The translations under genes were made by a program, and so were the position numbers. This document shows, piece after piece, positions 4,528 through 43,060 of a DNA stretch of 64,000 bases. Each line of letters opens with the position of its first letter. The stretch's first letter is position 1. The notes under the pieces were generated by a model, which had not been told where the DNA came from, ran no database searches, and saw only the letters and a program-made list of their open reading frames with translations. The stretch spans positions 375,877-439,876 of the forward strand of contig PCXK01000007.1 of the NCBI GenBank assembly GCA_002787635.1, in the 5' to 3' direction. This DNA comes from Alphaproteobacteria bacterium CG11_big_fil_rev_8_21_14_0_20_39_49 (GTDB taxonomy: Bacteria; Pseudomonadota; Alphaproteobacteria; Rickettsiales; UBA6187).

Positions 4528-5127
4528 TTAACGTATCCTTCCGGTTCCTAAGAAGTTATCAGGGTTAAGCACTCTATTTATTCTTCTGTCTATAGCGGTA
4601 ATTATTTTCTGCGATGTTGGTTCGGACATTATCCATTGGGGTAAATCATCATCATTATCACTTATTTTTTTAACTTTTGAATCGACTCGCCTTGTATGTT
4701 CGGTATTATTTTCTTCGGTTCTATTGCAATTAAGATAATAACCTATGTCATCTTCATTAAATTTTGATGCTACTCCATGTAAAAGGTGAGTAAGTTCCGG
4801 ACGTGTGTATCCTGTTTTGATATAACCGGAGTCATTGTCAATTGCATTACTGATTAAATCTTGTAATGACGGATTTCTTTCTACAATTTCAAGTGCTAAT
4901 TTAGTTTGCCATGTGCTAAACGATTCATAACTAATTTTTCCATCTTCCCACTTGTCGATTTTAGTAAGAAGTTTTTTTTGAAAATGTTCGGAATCCTTGT
5001 ATTTTGCAGGAAGATTATATTCCTTATGCAAATCCGGTAAATTTACACCCATTTGAGTCATTTTTTCTTTAAATTCTTTTGAAGGTGCACAATAGTGAAT
5101 CGTAGGTCTTGAAGATGAGTTTCCCAT
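4528..5127 (-). CDS. Uncharacterised 199-residue protein, MGNSSSRP N-terminus
   Basis: I do not recognise a family. The protein is soluble and hydrophilic, with a charged central part and a likely helical C-terminus (SQKIITAIDRRINRVL). There is no signal peptide or membrane segment. The N-terminus MGNSSSRPT fits the eukaryotic N-myristoylation pattern (Gly2, small residue at 3, Ser6, no Pro at 7). The start is fixed by position: it lies 3 nt after the apaG stop, with no earlier in-frame start. It is therefore probably cotranscribed with apaG. It converges with the UbiH-type gene, and an AAGGAT/ATCCTT hairpin at 4514-4541 covers the shared end. An effector role is only a hypothesis. Confidence 0.72.
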   Translation of the reverse strand: MGNSSSRPTIHYCAPSKEFKEKMTQMGVNLPDLHKEYNLPAKYKDSEHFQKKLLTKIDKWEDGKISYESFSTWQTKLALEIVERNPSLQDLISNAIDNDSGYIKTGYTRPELTHLLHGVASKFNEDDIGYYLNCNRTEENNTEHTRRVDSKVKKISDNDDDLPQWIMSEPTSQKIITAIDRRINRVLNPDNFLGTGRIR

Positions 5128-20325: not shown

Positions 20326-21108
20326 TTACAAACCTTGTTGTGAGCCTGCGGAGCGTTTTTGATTTTGATAGTCATCTGCCCATTTCTTTTTTGAATCACC
20401 ATCTTTATAGTTAGCTAAATCCTTTCTAACGGCATTATCTATAATCTCTTCTACCAAAGGCGGCGACCAGTGATTAACGTCACGAGCTATAGTTCTATAT
20501 GTAACCGTCTGATCTTGAGTGTCAATTGTTTTAGAGAGTGCCTGTATTACCCTATATTCACTTCCTAGATATAAGACATCCGTTAATTCTCTAGCATCTT
20601 TCATCTGAGATCTGACCGAGTCCTGTTTTTCCGAAAGTGAGCTTTTTAAAGAATCTGCACTAGCACCTGAATCTCGGATTATGTCCAATATAGGCGTGTT
20701 CTCATCTATCCCTTTGCTTTGTAAAGAGCTTCTTCTTCTATTTAATGCCTCGTAAGCATTGGATATCATTATTTGATCTTTTGACATAACTCCGTCCCTA
20801 TCTCCTTGAAAATCAAGATAGCCGAGCTTGGGTTCATCGCCTGAAAAATCATCTTTCAATTTGTTGATTAAAGTATCACATTCTTCACCTTGTTCTTTGA
20901 AACGTGATGACATTCTATCATTCTTCTGAAATTGCCCGAAATTTTTTCCATAAGCCCTTGCAAGCTCATTGTTACTAATCCTTCTTGAATCCAAAAACTC
21001 CATAAAGTAATCGGGATCTAAATTTTTGTTTTCAAGAACTGTTTTTAACGGAGTCGCTCCATTTCGTCTTAGTTCCGAATCACGCATTTGTAAAATCATT
21101 ATATCCAT
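20326..21108 (-). CDS. Uncharacterised 260-residue helical protein
   Basis: I do not recognise a family. It is a soluble, highly charged and mainly helical protein without signal peptide or membrane segments. Ser/Lys/Asp-rich stretches (residues 125-170: SLQSKGIDENTPI... SLSEKQDSVRSQMKD) suggest coiled-coil character. The C-terminal 30 residues are polar and probably disordered. The ATG at 21108 has a good AAGGAAG site. It lies 18 nt after dapE on the same strand, so it may be expressed from the dapD-dapE operon. It could be a lineage-specific or secreted protein; there is no direct evidence for either. Confidence 0.72.
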   Translation of the reverse strand: MDIMILQMRDSELRRNGATPLKTVLENKNLDPDYFMEFLDSRRISNNELARAYGKNFGQFQKNDRMSSRFKEQGEECDTLINKLKDDFSGDEPKLGYLDFQGDRDGVMSKDQIMISNAYEALNRRRSSLQSKGIDENTPILDIIRDSGASADSLKSSLSEKQDSVRSQMKDARELTDVLYLGSEYRVIQALSKTIDTQDQTVTYRTIARDVNHWSPPLVEEIIDNAVRKDLANYKDGDSKKKWADDYQNQKRSAGSQQGL

Positions 21109-28333: not shown

Positions 28334-29335
28334 CTACCTACACAAACTAGCCTGACTGCCATTACGGCTTAAAATGCTCGGCAGGCTTTCAAGGCTGTCA
28401 CTTAAAGTAATGTTTTTTGCAGTGTTCCTATCAATATGAGAGTCAACTATCCATAATAACATATGAGCCATAACAGGAGTTGAAATTGCATTTTTTGCCG
28501 CACTTATAAATGTTCCGTTTGCTATATTCTCATTTGCAGGCGGCGGTAATGTTTCGGTATGTCCTAAAGTCTTACCTGCATTGTACATCTTTGGTAAAAA
28601 CGAACTTTTGCAAACATAGGTGGCTATATTTTCATCTTCTTTGGGTTCAAAGCCTGTGAATTTAGCTCCGAACGGCTCATATAAACGAAGCTGAATATCA
28701 GACCGTATGCCTTTTTCTTTTAAAATGTTGTAAGCTTTTATCGCATGCGGAGTACCTGCCGAATGAGCTGAAACCACAATAACCCTAGGCACTTTGTCAG
28801 TTCCGTAGGCTTCTTGGTATTTGTTCATTGTTTTATCAAGAAATTCTTTGGTTTCTTTTTCATAAGCCATTGGTCTTCCCGTTAAGAACATGGCGGTAGT
28901 GCGAGGGATATCACTATATTGCTTAGTTCCTCCGAACGCAATTCTAAGAGAAGAAGGTAGCGAAGCTGAAGAACCCCCGTCCTTTGGAAAAACAAGGTAT
29001 GAACGAGCATGAAAACCATGCATATTAACATTTTCTAAGGTGCGTAACTCATAATTTGAACCTTCCGTAGTTATTAAATTAAAATCTTCCTTGCTTCCTC
29101 TATCTGTCGCATCAATATACAGCCCCTTGGGACGCAATTGATTCAGCTTACCGGCACGACTATCGGGAAATGAAGATAAACCTACTCCGTCAATAATTAT
29201 CCCGTCATCTCTTTCTTTGGAAGACAGGCAGCTAAAAGTCATATGACTCCCTAATAAAACTTGGTTATTTGAAATCTTATTAAGGCTATTTATTCTGTAT
29301 AATCCGTGTTGTCGCAAAATATTAAAATTTCTCAT
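28334..29335 (-). CDS. Lipase-3-like hydrolase, paralogue A
   Basis: A 333-residue protein. The core looks like a class 3 lipase: LRIAFGGT (residues 130-137) corresponds to the family's AFRGT, and the nucleophile elbow is VVSAHSAGT with Ser192. The LYEPFGAKF segment sits where lipases have FG.P..GN. The elbow has Ala190 where most lipases have Gly. There is no obvious signal peptide. It is a paralogue of the gene at 29560-30597, with strong matches in IIDGVGL, SYELKTLE, HAKSY, GHSAG and YEPFGAKF blocks. The substrate is unknown. These could be secreted or host-directed phospholipases, but no secretion signal is seen. Confidence 0.75.
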   Translation of the reverse strand: MRNFNILRQHGLYRINSLNKISNNQVLLGSHMTFSCLSSKERDDGIIIDGVGLSSFPDSRAGKLNQLRPKGLYIDATDRGSKEDFNLITTEGSNYELRTLENVNMHGFHARSYLVFPKDGGSSASLPSSLRIAFGGTKQYSDIPRTTAMFLTGRPMAYEKETKEFLDKTMNKYQEAYGTDKVPRVIVVSAHSAGTPHAIKAYNILKEKGIRSDIQLRLYEPFGAKFTGFEPKEDENIATYVCKSSFLPKMYNAGKTLGHTETLPPPANENIANGTFISAAKNAISTPVMAHMLLWIVDSHIDRNTAKNITLSDSLESLPSILSRNGSQASLCR

Positions 29336-29365
29336 TTTGTTATGACCTTCTCTTACAGGTTATAG

Positions 29366-29526
29366 TATAGTATTTTCTAATTGGAACAGAACTATGATTT
29401 GTCACCCCGTTGTTATAACGGGGTCCGGTGCTGTGTTTCAAGCCCTTCCAGACCCCGTCATGCGACGGGGTGACAAGTGACATAATAAAAGTTACATAGT
29501 TTTCTCTTCATTAGAAAATACTATAA
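29366..29526. repeat. Palindromic element between the lipase-like paralogues
   Basis: Outer inverted repeats TATAGTATTTTCTAAT and ATTAGAAAATACTATA enclose an inner perfect-looking pair, GTCACCCCGTTG...ACGGGGTC and GACCCCGT...CGACGGGGTGAC. The structure is a repeat within a repeat, as in families 1 and 2. It lies between the two paralogous genes. The right half is shared with 20083-20105. Confidence 0.75.
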
Positions 29527-29559
29527 ATTCAAATTTAGCCATTACCGAATTTACTATAA

Positions 29560-30597
29560 CTAAAGTCTTGAAAACATGCCGGTTGAATAATTTTTAGCAA
29601 GTTGAGAACTTATCACGCCTTCAGCAAATTTAGCTATCCCGTTTGTTGACTGGGATTTTCTCACAGGCTCTAGTTCCACTTCTTCTTTCTCGTCAGATTT
29701 TAAACCTGATTCTATTATGGAATCTATGCCGTGTCCTTTTATAGAGGCTGCCATAGCCCTACCTAAAATCCCCCATTGCGACATACTTATAGCCTTACCT
29801 GCCGCAACTTGTTTTTGTAAATCCGATTCGGGTAAAGCTTTAACTTCACCGATAGTATCGCCATCATATAAAAAGTATTTTAAAAAACTATTGTGACCTG
29901 TGTAGCTGACGGCTTCTTTTTGATCCTCCTGTTTCATTTTTGAAAACTTAGCTCCGAACGGCTCGTATAAATGAAGATGCACGTCCGATTCTATCCCTTT
30001 TTCCTTTAATATCTCAAATGCCTTATTGGCTTGAGTTGCTCCGGCTGAATGTCCTGAAATAACTATGTTTTCAGGCAAACCGCTATCAGGGTTGGATTGC
30101 CGATAGGTTTCTAATGTATTATCTATAAATTCCCTTAAATTTTTTTCATAGTGTAACGGAAGCTTGGTAACGTGCATTGCAAATGTTCTTCCCCAATCCT
30201 GCTCCCTTGTGCCGCCAAAGGCTATACGCAATGAATCGCTGCCTTTTTTTTCTTTTGAGCTTATCGGTTTCTGATTTACTACATAAGACTTGGCATGAAG
30301 GCCTATCTTATCTACTTGTTCTAGTGTCTTTAATTCGTAACTGTTGCCGGTAGTTTTTATCCTATAATCCGTCTTGTCACCTCTTTTTATGGAAGAAATA
30401 TCCAATCCTTTTTCTTTTAATTCTTCAAAGGTTTTTTTATTAAAATCGGTAACACCAGTAGTGGTGGCCAGACCGACTCCGTCTAAAATGACATTATCCT
30501 TCTGCCTAGAAGGCAAGATGCCGATGGAAGGACGTTTCTTACTAATACTTGAGCTTAGAATAAAAGCCGCATTTATTGCTTGTGATGCATATTTCAT
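29560..30597 (-). CDS. Lipase-3-like hydrolase, paralogue B
   Basis: A 345-residue paralogue of the preceding gene. It keeps a canonical elbow, GHSAG (Ser184), and LRIAFGGT (residues 123-130), as in class 3 lipases. DGVGL (residues 39-43) and a conserved N-terminal block up to about residue 110 have no obvious match in ordinary lipases. Copy A carries an Ala for Gly change next to the nucleophile; copy B does not. The first 15 residues are hydrophobic (IAFIL-type) but lack a clear cleavage site. Tandem duplication is probably recent within this lineage, since only these two copies are in the window. Confidence 0.75.
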   Translation of the reverse strand: MKYASQAINAAFILSSSISKKRPSIGILPSRQKDNVILDGVGLATTTGVTDFNKKTFEELKEKGLDISSIKRGDKTDYRIKTTGNSYELKTLEQVDKIGLHAKSYVVNQKPISSKEKKGSDSLRIAFGGTREQDWGRTFAMHVTKLPLHYEKNLREFIDNTLETYRQSNPDSGLPENIVISGHSAGATQANKAFEILKEKGIESDVHLHLYEPFGAKFSKMKQEDQKEAVSYTGHNSFLKYFLYDGDTIGEVKALPESDLQKQVAAGKAISMSQWGILGRAMAASIKGHGIDSIIESGLKSDEKEEVELEPVRKSQSTNGIAKFAEGVISSQLAKNYSTGMFSRL

Positions 30598-33974: not shown

Positions 33975-34233
33975 AACTTGATTTCGGGTAAATTTTTCAT
34001 AAACGCAAGCCCATAAAATATAAGTTGAAAATTAAATAAATTAATAATATTAATGCATTTCGTTTGAATGCAGTGTTTTTATGTGTTTGGTCATTGTGGT
34101 AATAACGCTACGCATAGTTGGAGTGTTTAAACCTTTTAATGACGGTTGCACCAAGTAAGGTTCAGTATTTTTGGATAGGTATTCTTCAAATAATAGAATT
34201 TAATAATATTTCTCGTAGGGAGTGGTTGTCGGT
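33975..34233. other. AT-rich leader of the two-partner secretion locus
   Basis: About 260 nt between the ssb terminator and the exoprotein gene. I see no ORF or repeat. The ribosome site TAGGGAG is at 34216-34222. Any promoter for the secretion locus must lie here; I could not assign -35/-10 boxes with confidence. Confidence 0.6.
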
Positions 34234-37200
34234 ATGGAAGCTTTAAGGAACGAATTTAGATGGAGAATGGTAAAGCGTAAAAAGCAGGTGGTTAATCTGT
34301 GTGCGGCTTTTGGTTTTGTTCTTTGTTTTGCAGGTGTAAATAATTCATTTGCTGATGCGGTTTCATCAAATGCGTTGCCGACTGATCCTGTTACGGTAGA
34401 AGGAAGTGCGGATCATACATATACGGACAACAGCCTTAATGTGGGAATGAACACTTCTTTTGTAAAAGACACATATAGCTCGTTCAATATCGGTAGGGAT
34501 GCACAGGTTAATATTTCAGGCGGTAATACATATGTTGCCAAAGTCCTTGAAGGCGGTGGTTTAAGCCATATATACGGACAGCTTAACGCAGCCGGTATAA
34601 ACGTATTTCTACAGAATAGTTCGGGAATTACTTTCCACGGCTCATCACAGGTTAATGTGGGTTCATTACTTGCGACTACTGCCGGTGATATTGATTTTAA
34701 TGAAAACGGCTTTGAATTATCTGATTTTGGTGATGCATCGGTAATTAACGATGGTGATATCAGGGTTTCAGATGGCGGTTTTGCTATATTAGCCGCACCT
34801 TATGTTGAAAATAACGGATTTATACAGGCTGACCTCGGAAAAATAGTTTTAGCCTCAACTACTGCAATGACAGTTGACTTGCGTGGTGACGGATTGATAA
34901 CCTATGGCGTTACAGACGAAAGTTTATCTAAAGCAGGTGTAACAAATACAGGCACTTTACAGGCAAAGTCAGGTGTTGTTCATATTTCTGCTGCGGTAGC
35001 CTCCGATGTAATCGAAAGCGTTGTAAATCTTGACGGCGTTATAGATGCCGATTCATTCGGTGAGGGGGAAGACGGTGGAACCGTATTAATATCATCTACG
35101 GGCGATATTAACCTTAATGATGTTACTATTTCTGCCGATGGCGGAAAAAACGGTAATGGAGGTTCTGTAGATACATGGGCTGACGGTGTTAATAATTTTA
35201 GTTCAGATGCGTTCATTAGTGCCAAAGGCGGTGTTGAATCAGGAAACGGCGGCACGATAGAAATAAGCGGAACTAATATATTATTAGACGGTGATGTTGA
35301 TGCTTCCGCTGCAAACGGTGAGGGCGGTGAATTTATAATCGACCCGCTTGCACTGACGATTAAAGACGGTAATGGTCCATCTAATTTTATTAACCCTCTT
35401 ATCAATACAGTCTATGAAGAAAGAGTAGAGTTTTGGTCGGGTCTGGGCATTGCCGTTACTTTGGAAGCCGATTACCTTATAACACTGGAGAATTTGACAG
35501 ATGGTGTTTTAGAAGGTGGTTCGGGTGATATTACGTTAAGAACTCTGAAAAATGCAGGAGGTGTATTCTTCCTTGATAAAAATGATAAAATATCAACAAC
35601 TTCCGGTGATATTAACATAGAAGCAGGATTGCTCGGTATTGATATAGGTCATTTGGAAACGGGAAGAGGTTTGATTGGTGATGCAGGTGACATAAACCTG
35701 ACTACCTCAGTGGCGACTTTTTCAAAAGGCGGTAACATTAATACCAAATCTATTACCGTAGGCGGTGCGACCTTAACAAATAGTACGGATTCGACAGGTG
35801 AAGTAAATATCAATGCTCACGGTAACGTCAATATTGACGGTCAGATAAATCTTTCAGTAGCAACTTTTGGCGATGATTCTAATGCTAATTCTGCTGTTAA
35901 TATATATTCAAAAAATGGTGATATTAAAATTTTAGACGATGTAAATCTTACATCTTTTGCATCAGGTGTTAATTCTGATGCGGTAACGAAATTAAATATT
36001 TTAGCAGCTAAAGGTGATGTTATTGTTGATAACATCAATGTAGATACTGAAATTTTATCTATGAGCCTTACTTCTATTAATGGAAACTTACAATTTAATA
36101 ACGTTGATATATTAGCGTCTAATGTTAATGATGCGAACAAAGAAGTGAACTTTTCTTCTATTAATGGAAATATTATCGGTGGCAACATACAATCCGATGC
36201 AGGAATACACATTACCACTGCCGACACAAGTTTGTTAGGGTTAAAAGGTAATGTTGATTTAGGCAATATCGGCACTAAAGATTCAAACAAAACTATTGCT
36301 ATAAATGCAGACGGTAATGTTAATACGGGCGTATTGGAAGGAAATGCGGCTATAATAGCTAGCGATGATGTAACTACATCTAATATATTCAGCGGTTCAG
36401 GTGTATCAATAGAGGGAAATAATGTTGAAACGGGTAATATTAACGGTGATGTTGATATAACTGCCGGAAATAACATTACTACAAAAAATATTAAGGGTGC
36501 GACCGATGTGTTTATAGATGCGGGTAATGATGTTACCACAGGCAATATTAACAGCACTAACGACACATACATTGAAGCGGATAATAATGTTGTTACAAAA
36601 AACATTATTACAGGTGATGATCTGGATATAATTGCTAGTAATGATGTTACTACAGCCAATATAGTTAGTGATGATGATGTTTACATTGATGCTTTGGGCA
36701 ATGTTTTAACTAAGAACATTATCAGCGGTGATGACATATTTATAGCTGCGTCAGGCAATGTTACTACAAATAACATTTTTGCTTTAAATTTTGGTGCAGG
36801 CAAAGGATTTGACGTAACTTCAGAAGTTGAAATATATTCATTAGGAGATGTAAACGTTAACGGCAATGTTTTTGCAGGTTCCGCTGCAACCGGATTCGGT
36901 AATGCCGATACATTAATTAGCATTGTTGCAAATAAAGTTGCCGTAAGCGGTAATGTTACGGCTGTTTCTAACTCTGCCTTTGGTGATTCTGAGGCTATTA
37001 TTTCCGTAATCGGTTTGAATGATTCGGTTGATATTGGCGGAAACGTATCAAATATTGCTAACAGCTTCGGAGGTGATGCAGGTTCAACTATACTAGTTGC
37101 TGCAAATAACGATGTTTCTATAGGTGATAATTTAACTTCTTCTGCCACAACGGTTATCGGTGATTCTTCCGCATTCGGTATTATAGCGTCCAAAAACGGA

Positions 37201-38103
37201 GAGGTCGGTATAGGTGGTAATTTAGTTACAAATTCCGTTACAATTAACGGCGATTCTACGGCAGCTTTAAATGTTAAAGGTGAAAACGGGGTTTTCATCG
37301 GAGGCGATATTTCCTCAACTTCAAATACTATTAACGGTGACGCTTCTTCGTCAATTAATGTTGAAGCCGGTGATAGTAGTGCGGACGTTGATATAATAGG
37401 TGCTATTGCTGCAAGGGCGTTTTCAACTAATCAGAACGCTGATGCTGATGTCACCATAACAGCAGGTAGAGATATTTTGTTATCGGCCTTAGTTCCCGAC
37501 CCTTTGGCGGAAGCTAATGGTGCGTTAGTACAGCAAAGGTTTACAGGAACTGATAGTGCCGCTACAGGCAATGCCTCTTTGACATTAGATGCTGATGGCT
37601 CTGTTAGATTCTTTGATGCTAATAATTTTGATCAGAACGCAATACATAAAGAAACCGGAACTCCTTATGACCAAAACGGCTTTGATATAAACGGTTATGA
37701 TATAAACGGATTTGATGTAAACGGTTTCAATCAATTCGGTTTTGATATTAACGGCATACATCGTGATACCGGAACACCTTTTGCCCCTGACGGATATGAC
37801 CAAAACGGCTTTGATATAGCAGGTTTTGACCGAAATGGATTCGATATAAACGGATTTGATGCAAATGGCTTTGATATTGCAGGCATACATCGTGATACGG
37901 GAATTATTTTTGATCCTAACGGTTTTGATGTAAACGGTAATCCTGCTCCGGGGCAGATTGATACTCTGGTTGCTCAATTAGAGGGTAGTGACGACGGTCA
38001 GGACAATACAGCAGGCGGTAATTCGGGCTTAAGTAGCTTAGAGCCTGCCGGTGGCGGTTCGGACGAGTGTGAGTTCATGAACTGTGAAGAACCTAACAGT
38101 TAA
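34234..38103 (+). CDS. TpsA-type filamentous exoprotein with C-terminal cysteine pair
   Basis: A 1,289-residue secreted beta-helix protein of the filamentous haemagglutinin/TPS family. In order: an extended signal peptide with hydrophobic core and FADA cleavage region (to about 40); the TPS secretion domain (about 55-240) with GQLNAAGINVFLQNSSGITF (NPNGI-like) and GSLLATTAGD; a long beta-helix with near-repeated units such as NVTTKNI.GDD..I.A; a repeat block of NGFD pentapeptides (about 1129-1240); and an acidic tail ending DECEFMNCEEPNS. The only cysteines outside the signal peptide are these two, as in cysteine-hook adhesins. Start: ATG 34234 with AGGGAG 11 nt upstream; GTG at 34222 would overlap that site. 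tpsB follows after 26 nt. Confidence 0.92.
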   Translation: MEALRNEFRWRMVKRKKQVVNLCAAFGFVLCFAGVNNSFADAVSSNALPTDPVTVEGSADHTYTDNSLNVGMNTSFVKDTYSSFNIGRDAQVNISGGNTYVAKVLEGGGLSHIYGQLNAAGINVFLQNSSGITFHGSSQVNVGSLLATTAGDIDFNENGFELSDFGDASVINDGDIRVSDGGFAILAAPYVENNGFIQADLGKIVLASTTAMTVDLRGDGLITYGVTDESLSKAGVTNTGTLQAKSGVVHISAAVASDVIESVVNLDGVIDADSFGEGEDGGTVLISSTGDINLNDVTISADGGKNGNGGSVDTWADGVNNFSSDAFISAKGGVESGNGGTIEISGTNILLDGDVDASAANGEGGEFIIDPLALTIKDGNGPSNFINPLINTVYEERVEFWSGLGIAVTLEADYLITLENLTDGVLEGGSGDITLRTLKNAGGVFFLDKNDKISTTSGDINIEAGLLGIDIGHLETGRGLIGDAGDINLTTSVATFSKGGNINTKSITVGGATLTNSTDSTGEVNINAHGNVNIDGQINLSVATFGDDSNANSAVNIYSKNGDIKILDDVNLTSFASGVNSDAVTKLNILAAKGDVIVDNINVDTEILSMSLTSINGNLQFNNVDILASNVNDANKEVNFSSINGNIIGGNIQSDAGIHITTADTSLLGLKGNVDLGNIGTKDSNKTIAINADGNVNTGVLEGNAAIIASDDVTTSNIFSGSGVSIEGNNVETGNINGDVDITAGNNITTKNIKGATDVFIDAGNDVTTGNINSTNDTYIEADNNVVTKNIITGDDLDIIASNDVTTANIVSDDDVYIDALGNVLTKNIISGDDIFIAASGNVTTNNIFALNFGAGKGFDVTSEVEIYSLGDVNVNGNVFAGSAATGFGNADTLISIVANKVAVSGNVTAVSNSAFGDSEAIISVIGLNDSVDIGGNVSNIANSFGGDAGSTILVAANNDVSIGDNLTSSATTVIGDSSAFGIIASKNGEVGIGGNLVTNSVTINGDSTAALNVKGENGVFIGGDISSTSNTINGDASSSINVEAGDSSADVDIIGAIAARAFSTNQNADADVTITAGRDILLSALVPDPLAEANGALVQQRFTGTDSAATGNASLTLDADGSVRFFDANNFDQNAIHKETGTPYDQNGFDINGYDINGFDVNGFNQFGFDINGIHRDTGTPFAPDGYDQNGFDIAGFDRNGFDINGFDANGFDIAGIHRDTGIIFDPNGFDVNGNPAPGQIDTLVAQLEGSDDGQDNTAGGNSGLSSLEPAGGGSDECEFMNCEEPNS
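37618..37950 (+). repeat. NGFD pentapeptide repeat block in the exoprotein
   Basis: About 110 residues with a 5-residue period, [D/N]xNGF or xNGFD. Three landmarks, HKETG, HRDTG and HRDTG, split it into units of 38 and 43 residues, which differ by exactly one pentapeptide. At DNA level the units are degenerate copies of GATNTAAACGGNTTTGAT. It lies just before the cysteine-bearing tail. Confidence 0.85.
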
Positions 38104-38129
38104 TTATAATTTGATAAGAGGAATGCGTT

Positions 38130-39812
38130 GTGTCTAACAATAAATTAAATATTACGGTTTTATGTGCAAGTCTGTCGCTGGTTACTACCTCAGCATTGGC
38201 ACAAGTAGAACGTTTCCCGGGGCTTATCGATAAACAAGTGCCTGATGTTAGCGTTCCTGATTCATATTCATTGGATAAAGAGCCGAGCAAGCCTTTAGAA
38301 GATTCTCCGGTTCTGGAAAGAATTAAAGATGCTAATAAAGTGTTGGCAACTTTAAATTCGGTTTCTTTTGAGGGTAATATGGTTATCGGTGATGCCCGGT
38401 TACAGGAAATCGCACAAAGATATATCGGTAAGAAGTTTACCAACGGTGACTTGGCGGAGCTAAAGTTTGATATTAAAAAAGCGTTTTATGACAGAGGATA
38501 TATACTTGTTAGAGTTGTTACAAAACCTCAGAATTTTGCTTCGGGTAATTTAACCGTATCAATCTATGAGGCTAAAGTAGGCGATGTGGTGATTCCTGCA
38601 ACCGGTGCTATTAAATCATGGCTGGCAAAGCGTATTGCGGCACGTGTTAAAGCCGGTGATATCGTTGTTGAAAGTGTATTAGAGTCGATGATAAGCGATG
38701 TTAATGACTTATCGGGAATCGATGCAAGTGTGAATTTAAGACCGGGTAAGGCATTTAGCACAACCGACCTTAACCTTGTTGTAAATGAAGCAAATGAAGA
38801 TATTAACAGCATTAGTATTGATAATTACGGCAGTGAATTGACAGGCGAAATTGTAACCTCTGCTCACCTTGAAAAAAGTAATTTATTCAATTTTGGCGAG
38901 AAGCTTAACCTTGATGTTCAAGTCTCTGAAGATGACTTATGGAGCGTTGGGGCAGGGGCTGTTACGCCAATCGGCATAAGCAACATAAAGCTTGAAACCT
39001 CTTATATACATAGTGAAAACCAAATCGGCGGCAGGCTGGAAGGCTTGAATGCTAGTGGTGAAACCGATGCTTATAAAGTCGCTTTTTCAAGCAAGTTGTT
39101 AAATACAAGAAAACATCAGACTGTTGTAAGATTCGGTTATGAAGACAGAACGCACGAATCCTTCCTTTCTGATATCAGGGATACTAAAGATAACTTAAGA
39201 AAGTTATTTGCTGAGGCTTCTTATTTATTCAGAGGATTTTCAAGCGTTTTCTATGCTACGGCAAAGTTATCAAAAGGGTTGGATATATTCGGAGCCAGTG
39301 AACAAGGAGATATTACCGCAAGCCGTTTGGCAGGTGACCCTGAGGCTTGGATATTTGAGCCTACAATATTAATAAATTCACGTCCATTTAGTGATAACGG
39401 AACTATAAAAGCCATATTCAGAGGTCAGGTTGCGTCTAATACCCTGCTATCTTCCGATCTGTTTACAGTCGGAGGATACGGCAATATTAGAGGATTTAAC
39501 GTAGCACAGGAAGCCGCTGAGGCAGGTTATAGCTTTAATATCGAATATAACCACGTTATTCCTACTCCTTTGGATAAGATTGAGTTTAAGGCGGGACCTT
39601 TCATCGATGGCGGAGCTATTTATAACCGTGTTAGGGGAACTTTGCAGGATAGCCATTTTTATAGTGCCGGTATAGGTGTTGAGGCGAGAGCTAAAGTTGT
39701 GCCTGTAGGTGATACTGTGGTTCGCTTTGACTGGGCTCACCCGATAGGAAATTACCGTTCAAATCAGGTTTCCAGTGATACTATATATTTAAGGCTAAAA
39801 CAGGAATTCTAG
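38130..39812 (+). CDS. TpsB outer-membrane transporter (ShlB/FhaC/HecB family)
   Basis: A 560-residue outer-membrane beta-barrel that exports the TpsA partner. The signal peptide ends near ALA-QVE (about residue 25). A linker with Pro residues is followed by two POTRA domains (about 65-225): FEGNMVIGDARLQEIAQ and YDRGYILVRVVTKPQN. The 16-strand barrel ends in Phe (LRLKQEF), as expected for BAM recognition. The conserved FhaC-type VRGF of loop 6 appears as NIRGF (near 453). The start is GTG at 38130 after AAGAGGAA. It is 26 nt from the exoprotein stop and so in the same operon. Confidence 0.95.
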   Translation: MSNNKLNITVLCASLSLVTTSALAQVERFPGLIDKQVPDVSVPDSYSLDKEPSKPLEDSPVLERIKDANKVLATLNSVSFEGNMVIGDARLQEIAQRYIGKKFTNGDLAELKFDIKKAFYDRGYILVRVVTKPQNFASGNLTVSIYEAKVGDVVIPATGAIKSWLAKRIAARVKAGDIVVESVLESMISDVNDLSGIDASVNLRPGKAFSTTDLNLVVNEANEDINSISIDNYGSELTGEIVTSAHLEKSNLFNFGEKLNLDVQVSEDDLWSVGAGAVTPIGISNIKLETSYIHSENQIGGRLEGLNASGETDAYKVAFSSKLLNTRKHQTVVRFGYEDRTHESFLSDIRDTKDNLRKLFAEASYLFRGFSSVFYATAKLSKGLDIFGASEQGDITASRLAGDPEAWIFEPTILINSRPFSDNGTIKAIFRGQVASNTLLSSDLFTVGGYGNIRGFNVAQEAAEAGYSFNIEYNHVIPTPLDKIEFKAGPFIDGGAIYNRVRGTLQDSHFYSAGIGVEARAKVVPVGDTVVRFDWAHPIGNYRSNQVSSDTIYLRLKQEF

Positions 39813-42511: not shown

Positions 42512-42973
42512 TTATCTTGCAAGACCTTTATTTTGCTGTGATTCTTTCTTGCACTGACTTTCTAATTCGGGATAATCTCTTTTTAACTTTTTCATGTCTT
42601 TGTTAACTTGTTTGGTATCAATAGCTGAATTACAGGCTTCATATGCCTGAAAAGACTCCATATACAGCTCTTTTATTAGTTGGTATTTGCTAAGGGATCC
42701 GGTTGATTCAAGTGCGGGAGTCTCTAAAACGGCAGTGTAATATGCCAAATGACCGTAAGTCTTTAAAGCAGGCTTGTTAAGAGGGTTTTTAGCATCTTGA
42801 TTCAAATTATCGTTTCTATCTCTGAATCGGTTGTTGAAATCAAAGTATAAGGTTTGTATTTCTTCGATACTATCCTGACTTACACCGTCTGTGCACATTT
42901 CTTCTTCAAAGGTTCTAATTGCCTTATTAGCCTTAGTAAGAGTTTTTTTATCAAATGTTTTAGATTTTGCCAT
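42512..42973 (-). CDS. Uncharacterised 153-residue helical protein
   Basis: I do not recognise a family. It is small, soluble and helical with many Lys, Glu and Asn, three cysteines (EEEMCTDG, YEACNS, ESQCKK) and no signal peptide. Start is uncertain: the frame extends to 43036, but that leader lacks a ribosome site and the protein-like composition begins at MAKSKTFDKK (ATG at 42973). ATG at 42982 is a further option. It has its own surroundings: repeats downstream and the 43061-43100 hairpin upstream. It is not clearly part of an operon. Confidence 0.62.
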   Translation of the reverse strand: MAKSKTFDKKTLTKANKAIRTFEEEMCTDGVSQDSIEEIQTLYFDFNNRFRDRNDNLNQDAKNPLNKPALKTYGHLAYYTAVLETPALESTGSLSKYQLIKELYMESFQAYEACNSAIDTKQVNKDMKKLKRDYPELESQCKKESQQNKGLAR

Positions 42974-43060
42974 ATTAATCATTCTTAATAAGTGTTTAAA
43001 AGTAATTAATATATTAACCGTTACTAATTGTGTCAATTATTTAGTGTTATGAGAGAAATT

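Follow-up and report, generated by a model that had tools for sequence, protein, structure and literature searches.

The stretch of DNA analysed (the window, 64,000 nucleotides) contains two genes arranged head to tail on the minus strand and flanked by prmA and an rfbB-like gene, the names of the neighbours being taken from the reading of the ORFs. Gene B (29560-30597, minus strand) is an ORF of 345 aa with the nucleophile elbow SGHSAG, whose product resembles the hydrolases of lipase class 3. Gene A (28334-29335, minus strand), a paralogue of B located downstream of it, is an ORF of 333 aa with the elbow SAHSAG. Between the two genes lies an inverted-repeat, MITE-like element of about 160 bp (29366..29525, no strand assigned), which stands outside the lipase system. 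Tandem paralogues had been claimed in the original prediction, and both ORFs were indeed found to be open and intact; a single comparison of A with B showed 38% identity over 304 aa (E=2e-59). Identity peaks in a core comprising B residues 119-218 (55/99, 56%), amounts to 42% in the N-terminal block (approximately B residues 35-118) and drops to 17/76 (22%) in B residues 219-300, in the C-terminal half. The longest runs common to both proteins include SLRIAFGGT, ILKEKGI and LYEPFGAKF. The motifs of the prediction were recovered likewise, with LRIAFGGT in both proteins, SAHSAG in A and SGHSAG in B. The shared N-terminal block is also present, but the quoted motifs YELKTLE and HAKSY occur in B only, A having YELRTLE and HARSY. 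Gene A extends over 333 codons without a stop or frameshift and, as judged by eye, has its own plausible ribosome-binding site upstream. GC3 of the pair was 0.32 and 0.34, compared with 0.31-0.38 in 13 housekeeping genes, and codon use was host-like. Because composition and codon use resemble those of the neighbouring genes, nothing in them points to a recent acquisition of the pair from elsewhere. N-terminal hydropathy, the only check on a signal peptide, gave best 19-residue means of 0.45 (A) and 0.72 (B).

Neither protein scored over the Pfam cut-off; B showed sub-threshold matches to Abhydrolase_3 (E 0.07) and Lipase_3 (E 0.21), and A showed none. Against PF01764 (lipase class 3), B reached 11.9 bits at a gathering cut-off of 22, and A gave no match. 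No NCBIfam model was over the cut-off for A or B, and in PHROGs B matched an esterase/lipase family with E 0.011. A reference profile was built from 30 PF01764 loci of the same bacterial order (L015-L044), from which L039 was dropped for an in-frame stop, so that 29 sequences were aligned. Comparison with these 29 class-3 lipases by hhalign yielded a score of 58.3 for B (probability 94%) and 43.0 for A (78%). B and A thereby ranked first and second among the 48 frames of at least 200 aa in the window, the best of the other 46 scoring 25.9, and the maxima of the shuffle control (200 shuffles each) were 27.5 and 26.6. The profile-profile check that had been proposed for both proteins thus returned class-3 lipase homology, with scores far above those of the shuffles. 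In the alignments, IAFGGT...D is paired with the RGT...D strand of class 3, and the elbow with GHSxG. Matches to PF01764 were present in 96/262 genomes of the order and over the cut-off in 74/262, and the genome carrying A and B had no PF01764 match at E<=0.001. When solved structures were searched by sequence, B found one chain at E 0.45 and the A+B profile found none.

AlphaFold predictions from two-row alignments gave poor models, with mean pLDDT of 44.3 and 43.9 and pTM of 0.49 and 0.48. They were confident only in approximately B residues 150-200 and the equivalent part of A, and pLDDT was below 50 in the regions of the candidate acid and His. No Foldseek match at E<=0.001 was obtained for either low-confidence model; the top row for A was the Rhizomucor lipase 4tgl (E 0.0045) and the second row for B a Pseudomonas lipase (E 0.008). 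With VIA-align, each of the two low-confidence models (pLDDT 44) recovered lipase or esterase entries of this fold type in rows 1-31 of 50 (Z 10.1-6.3), the lists repeating the same few proteins so that the number of independent matches is below 31. After row 31, Z fell off, with B dropping to 4.5 and A to 5.2; among the entries that follow the lipases in the list of A are EDS1-PAD4 (Z 5.2) and, at Z 4.6, a Legionella protein. Seven of the 31 rows of B were entries that we take to be family I.3 lipases (MIS38, Serratia LipA), and its other rows presumably are fungal, plant or M37 class-3 enzymes. The N-terminal block falls at the first strands of class-3 lipases in the VIA-align ranges, a part in which the model is weak. 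Homology, similarity at the level of the fold and alignment of the motifs were thus observed. On the grounds of the controlled hhalign scores and the VIA-align rows, the lipase-3-like reading of the original prediction is supported at fold level, and the sequence-profile homology of A and B to class-3 lipases appears well supported at that level.

The FGGT motif of B (residues 127-130; 30208..30219, minus strand) was aligned by hhalign to FRGT...D of the references and is followed by Asp134-Trp135. In A, the A-B alignment and hhalign place FGGT at residues 134-137 (28925..28936, minus strand), followed by Asp142-Ile143. We take FGGT to be the 'RGT' strand motif of class 3, with its oxyanion role. 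Class-3 lipases carry a Trp after the Asp (DW), with which Trp135 of B agrees; A has Ile143 in its place. The predicted nucleophile of B is Ser184 in GHSAG (30046..30048, minus strand), which fell on the reference Ser in 29/29 sequences and also in hhalign. The predicted nucleophile of A is Ser192 in AHSAG (28760..28762, minus strand), which fell on the reference Ser in 29/29 when A was co-aligned with B; when A was aligned alone, MAFFT set its nucleophile in the wrong place, but hhalign placed Ser192 correctly. The first position of the elbow is Gly in 29/29 references and in B, and Ala in A. As an indication of lost activity this substitution is weak, since AXSXG lipases are described as a known active group (PMC9408867), and elbow Ala as a sufficient sign of lost activity in A was rejected for that reason.

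The predicted catalytic His of B is His289 (29731..29733, minus strand), which hhalign of B alone placed on the His of the reference HxxxxY; His291 of A (28463..28465, minus strand) is aligned to it. The candidate acid depended on the alignment. When B was aligned alone, Asp247 (29857..29859, minus strand; register 1) fell on the reference Asp in 27/29 sequences whichever of three MAFFT modes was used, and hhalign with MAC realignment concurred. The Ser-to-Asp spacing of the references, measured in 27/29, is +53 to +66, and Asp247 of B lies at +63. When A and B were aligned together, Ser237 (B) and Ser245 (A) fell on the reference Asp in 27/29 (MAFFT), and hhalign of the pair pointed to the same place. 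The acid register suggested by these alignments is therefore uncertain, and in the A+B register B too would be without an Asp. A has no acid in either register, as its residues there are Lys255 (28571..28573, minus strand; aligned with Asp247 of B in the A-B alignment) or Ser245. The absence of an Asp at both candidate positions indicates that A might be losing or changing its activity. The earlier suggestion that one copy might be losing activity can thus be retained on account of the acid, and not on account of the elbow, for which Ala is an insufficient argument (PMC9408867). Where A and B differ, the class-3 residues sit in B, i.e. the elbow Gly, the Trp after Asp134 and Asp247.

Taken as a whole, the reading that we consider rather probable is that A and B are anciently duplicated class-3-fold hydrolases, with B as a triad enzyme and A as an altered sister. 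An ancient duplication of a class-3-fold alpha/beta hydrolase would have given rise to both proteins, which would by now be too divergent for Pfam. B most likely cleaves an acyl ester, in a lipid or phospholipid, by means of a putative Ser184-Asp247-His289 triad, and the end of the FGGT strand would help to build the oxyanion hole. A keeps Ser192 and His291 but lacks an Asp where the canonical acid would stand, and is therefore probably a sister whose catalysis has been weakened, altered or lost. The change from G to A in its elbow would be tolerated and would not be the cause of any loss. It is also conceivable, although rather unlikely, that the acid has been relocated to Glu212 (B) and Glu220 (A) and that both proteins are active with a Ser-Glu-His triad. 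These residues lie just behind the strand that comes after the nucleophile helix, in LYEPFGAKF, which comprises residues 210-218 of B (29944..29970, minus strand), in place of the class-3 TFG(A/S)PR segment, and in the A-B alignment is found in identical form at residues 218-226 of A (28658..28684, minus strand). Hydrolases whose acid follows beta-strand 6 are known, and that arrangement is described as equivalent in function (PMC10913051). A and B alike retain Ser and His, LYEPFGAKF is among the longest identical runs of a pair that is only 38% identical, and in neither copy do the A+B alignments show an acid where the canonical one would stand. The alignment of B alone, however, sets Asp247 against the canonical acid, and model pLDDT at LYEPFGAKF is below 50. 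The segment moreover occupies the structural site of TFG(A/S)PR, so that its conservation could derive from a structural role.

The element between the genes is an inverted repeat with perfect inner arms (12/12) and 31-nt outer arms that are 81% complementary, and its folding gave z=-4.56. Its core reads TGTCACCCCG/CGGGGTGACA, and its ends carry TATAGTATTTTCTAAT in both orientations. A copy at 93% over 167 bases was found at G000:C7:190258-190424 (L008), and the genome contains 19 full or partial matches, the copy at the locus included. The palindrome reported between the genes is thus a real inverted repeat, but it is a dispersed element with a 93% copy elsewhere and is unrelated to the lipases; as a regulator or terminator of the pair it was rejected, since these 19 matches mark it as a dispersed element. 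The repeat fills most of the 224-bp gap and stops approximately 30 bases before the start of A. Its removal would leave a gap of about 64 bases between the genes, and B and A may therefore once have shared one transcript. From this it could be argued that A is a decaying duplicate heading for loss, which the inserted repeat has severed from the B transcript, and the fact that A has lost three residues typical of class 3 (the Gly of the elbow, the Trp of DW and the acid) would agree with decay, as would the 22% identity to B in the C-terminal half. We consider this unlikely: the reading frame of A is unbroken, its codon use is normal, a plausible ribosome-binding site in front of it could be recognised by eye, and long perfect motifs have survived a duplication old enough for 38% identity.

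A search with one sequence among 88 relatives detected the pair in 1/88, i.e. in its own genome only. The two-row profile gave matches in 2/343 genomes of the order, 2/385 of the class and 1/398 of the phylum, the genome itself being included each time and the samples overlapping. The candidates L004 (E 0.0095) and L006 (E 0.0073) were rejected as elbow coincidences, as they sit in FabD-like genes (by ORF reading). In genome_contigs, none of 590 stretches was confirmed, and nine stretches carrying the YEPFGAK pattern were discarded by tblastn (best E 0.026) and by their context. None of the 349 and 5 stretches from viral_contigs was confirmed, and no match was obtained in plasmids (A and B queries) or phages (B query). 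Among the genomes searched, the A/B family is confined to a single one. The original prediction had named a wide occurrence of homologues in free-living bacteria as an observation that would speak against it, and in the collections searched no homologue was found outside the genome itself. Within the family of the organism, prmA was found in 3/5 genomes, its own included. In G004, one of the two other prmA genomes, the neighbours of prmA (15 kb) were unrelated. Three tandem type-IV-pilin-like genes, with the prepilin N-terminus GFTLVE recognised by eye, lie near prmA in that genome (L014:788-3111).

The genome carries two separate virB8-virB9 islets (L009 and L010, on G000:C15 and G000:C9), and such pairs are described as a hallmark of the rvh T4SS of Rickettsiales (PMC2653234, PMC11077975). 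It also contains 17 Ank_2 stretches, 15 of them over the cut-off. The nucleotide translocase Tlc (PF03219) was found in 31/105 genomes of the order and in 0/5 genomes of the family (G000-G004, own included), and Tlc and nucleotide synthesis have been reported to be inversely related in Rickettsiales (PMC10847448). Given the two islets and the absence of Tlc, the organism fits best as a nucleotide-autonomous member of Rickettsiales. Since an intracellular, an extracellular or a free-living life are all possible, a host-directed action of A and B cannot be assumed; bacterial killing has been discussed as a possible early role of the rvh T4SS (PMC9352585, PMC11077975). The window further contains a purF-like gene, named from ORF reading, and a two-partner secretion pair (34222-39812) consisting of a TPS-domain exoprotein of 1293 aa and a ShlB/FhaC-type transporter with POTRA_2. 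Repeats of the type N-G-[FY]-D-[IV]-N-G could be seen by eye near the C-terminus of the exoprotein. FhaBC-type two-partner secretion is regarded as likely ancestral in Rickettsiales (PMC10847448). Three minus-strand ORFs of the window (4528-5127, 20326-21108 and 42512-43036; 199, 260 and 174 aa) had no Pfam match at E<=0.001 and are possible orphans.

A division of roles is also conceivable, in which catalysis rests with B while A, itself inactive as an enzyme, would regulate B, act as its chaperone or compete with it. A is without an Asp at both candidate positions and yet intact, with host-like codons and 56% identity in the core; the two virB8-virB9 islets bear the rvh hallmark, and unrelated lipolytic rvh substrates, the patatins, are described as recurrent and lineage-specific in Rickettsiales (PMC11077975). 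However, the net charge of the C-terminal 30 residues is only +1 (A) and +2 (B), the pair and the T4SS islets lie on different contigs, and reading of the ORF list revealed no evident immunity gene adjoining A and B, so that we hold an inactive partner to be quite improbable. The literature searched yielded no paper on a class-3 lipase effector of rickettsiae and one that names Lipase3 in passing, and the word 'lipase' has 0 occurrences in the main text of PMC11077975. That A and B are not lipases at all, and that elbow and FGGT are a chance resemblance in an unrelated orphan family, would be in line with the absence of any curated family over threshold and with the fact that lone elbow matches arise by chance, as in the FabD-like L004 and L006 (by ORF reading), but is very unlikely in view of the controlled hhalign profile scores and of two separately predicted models that both rank class-3 lipases consistently.

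A and B are a real, very divergent class-3-lipase-like pair, of a kind that is already known and of a family that is new. They show that a lipase-like family can escape a standard domain search in a genome of the Rickettsiales type. As B has a plausible complete triad and A has none, they form a clean pair for testing the loss or relocation of the acid in class 3. If they were secreted, they would add to the order a type of lipolytic protein distinct from the patatins known there; otherwise they would be an ordinary, very divergent lipase-like duplicate.

The rickettsial patatins Pat1 and Pat2 have a patatin fold and active site, unlike a class-3 lipase. They are described as lineage-specific lipolytic enzymes, some of which are rvh T4SS substrates (PMC11077975). 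The AXSXG lipases (families I.4/I.5, e.g. AHSMG) have Ala in the first elbow position, as does A (PMC9408867), but they are a different lipase family, and their likeness to A is limited to that one residue. The comparison group for A and B is lipase class 3 (PF01764), with the Rhizomucor/Thermomyces-type enzymes, the Malassezia mono/diacylglycerol lipases and plant PLA1. In common with class 3, A and B have the GT-D strand motif, the elbow (GHSxG in B), the strand that follows it and the spacing of the Ser, Asp and His candidates; unlike class 3, they have FGGT for FRGT and LYEPFGAKF for TFG(A/S)PR, and the position of the acid is uncertain, the acid being absent in A. The class-3 lipases of the same order (L015-L044) share the elbow and the predicted fold with A and B and keep the canonical GHSxG and DxVP, A and B having diverged much further.
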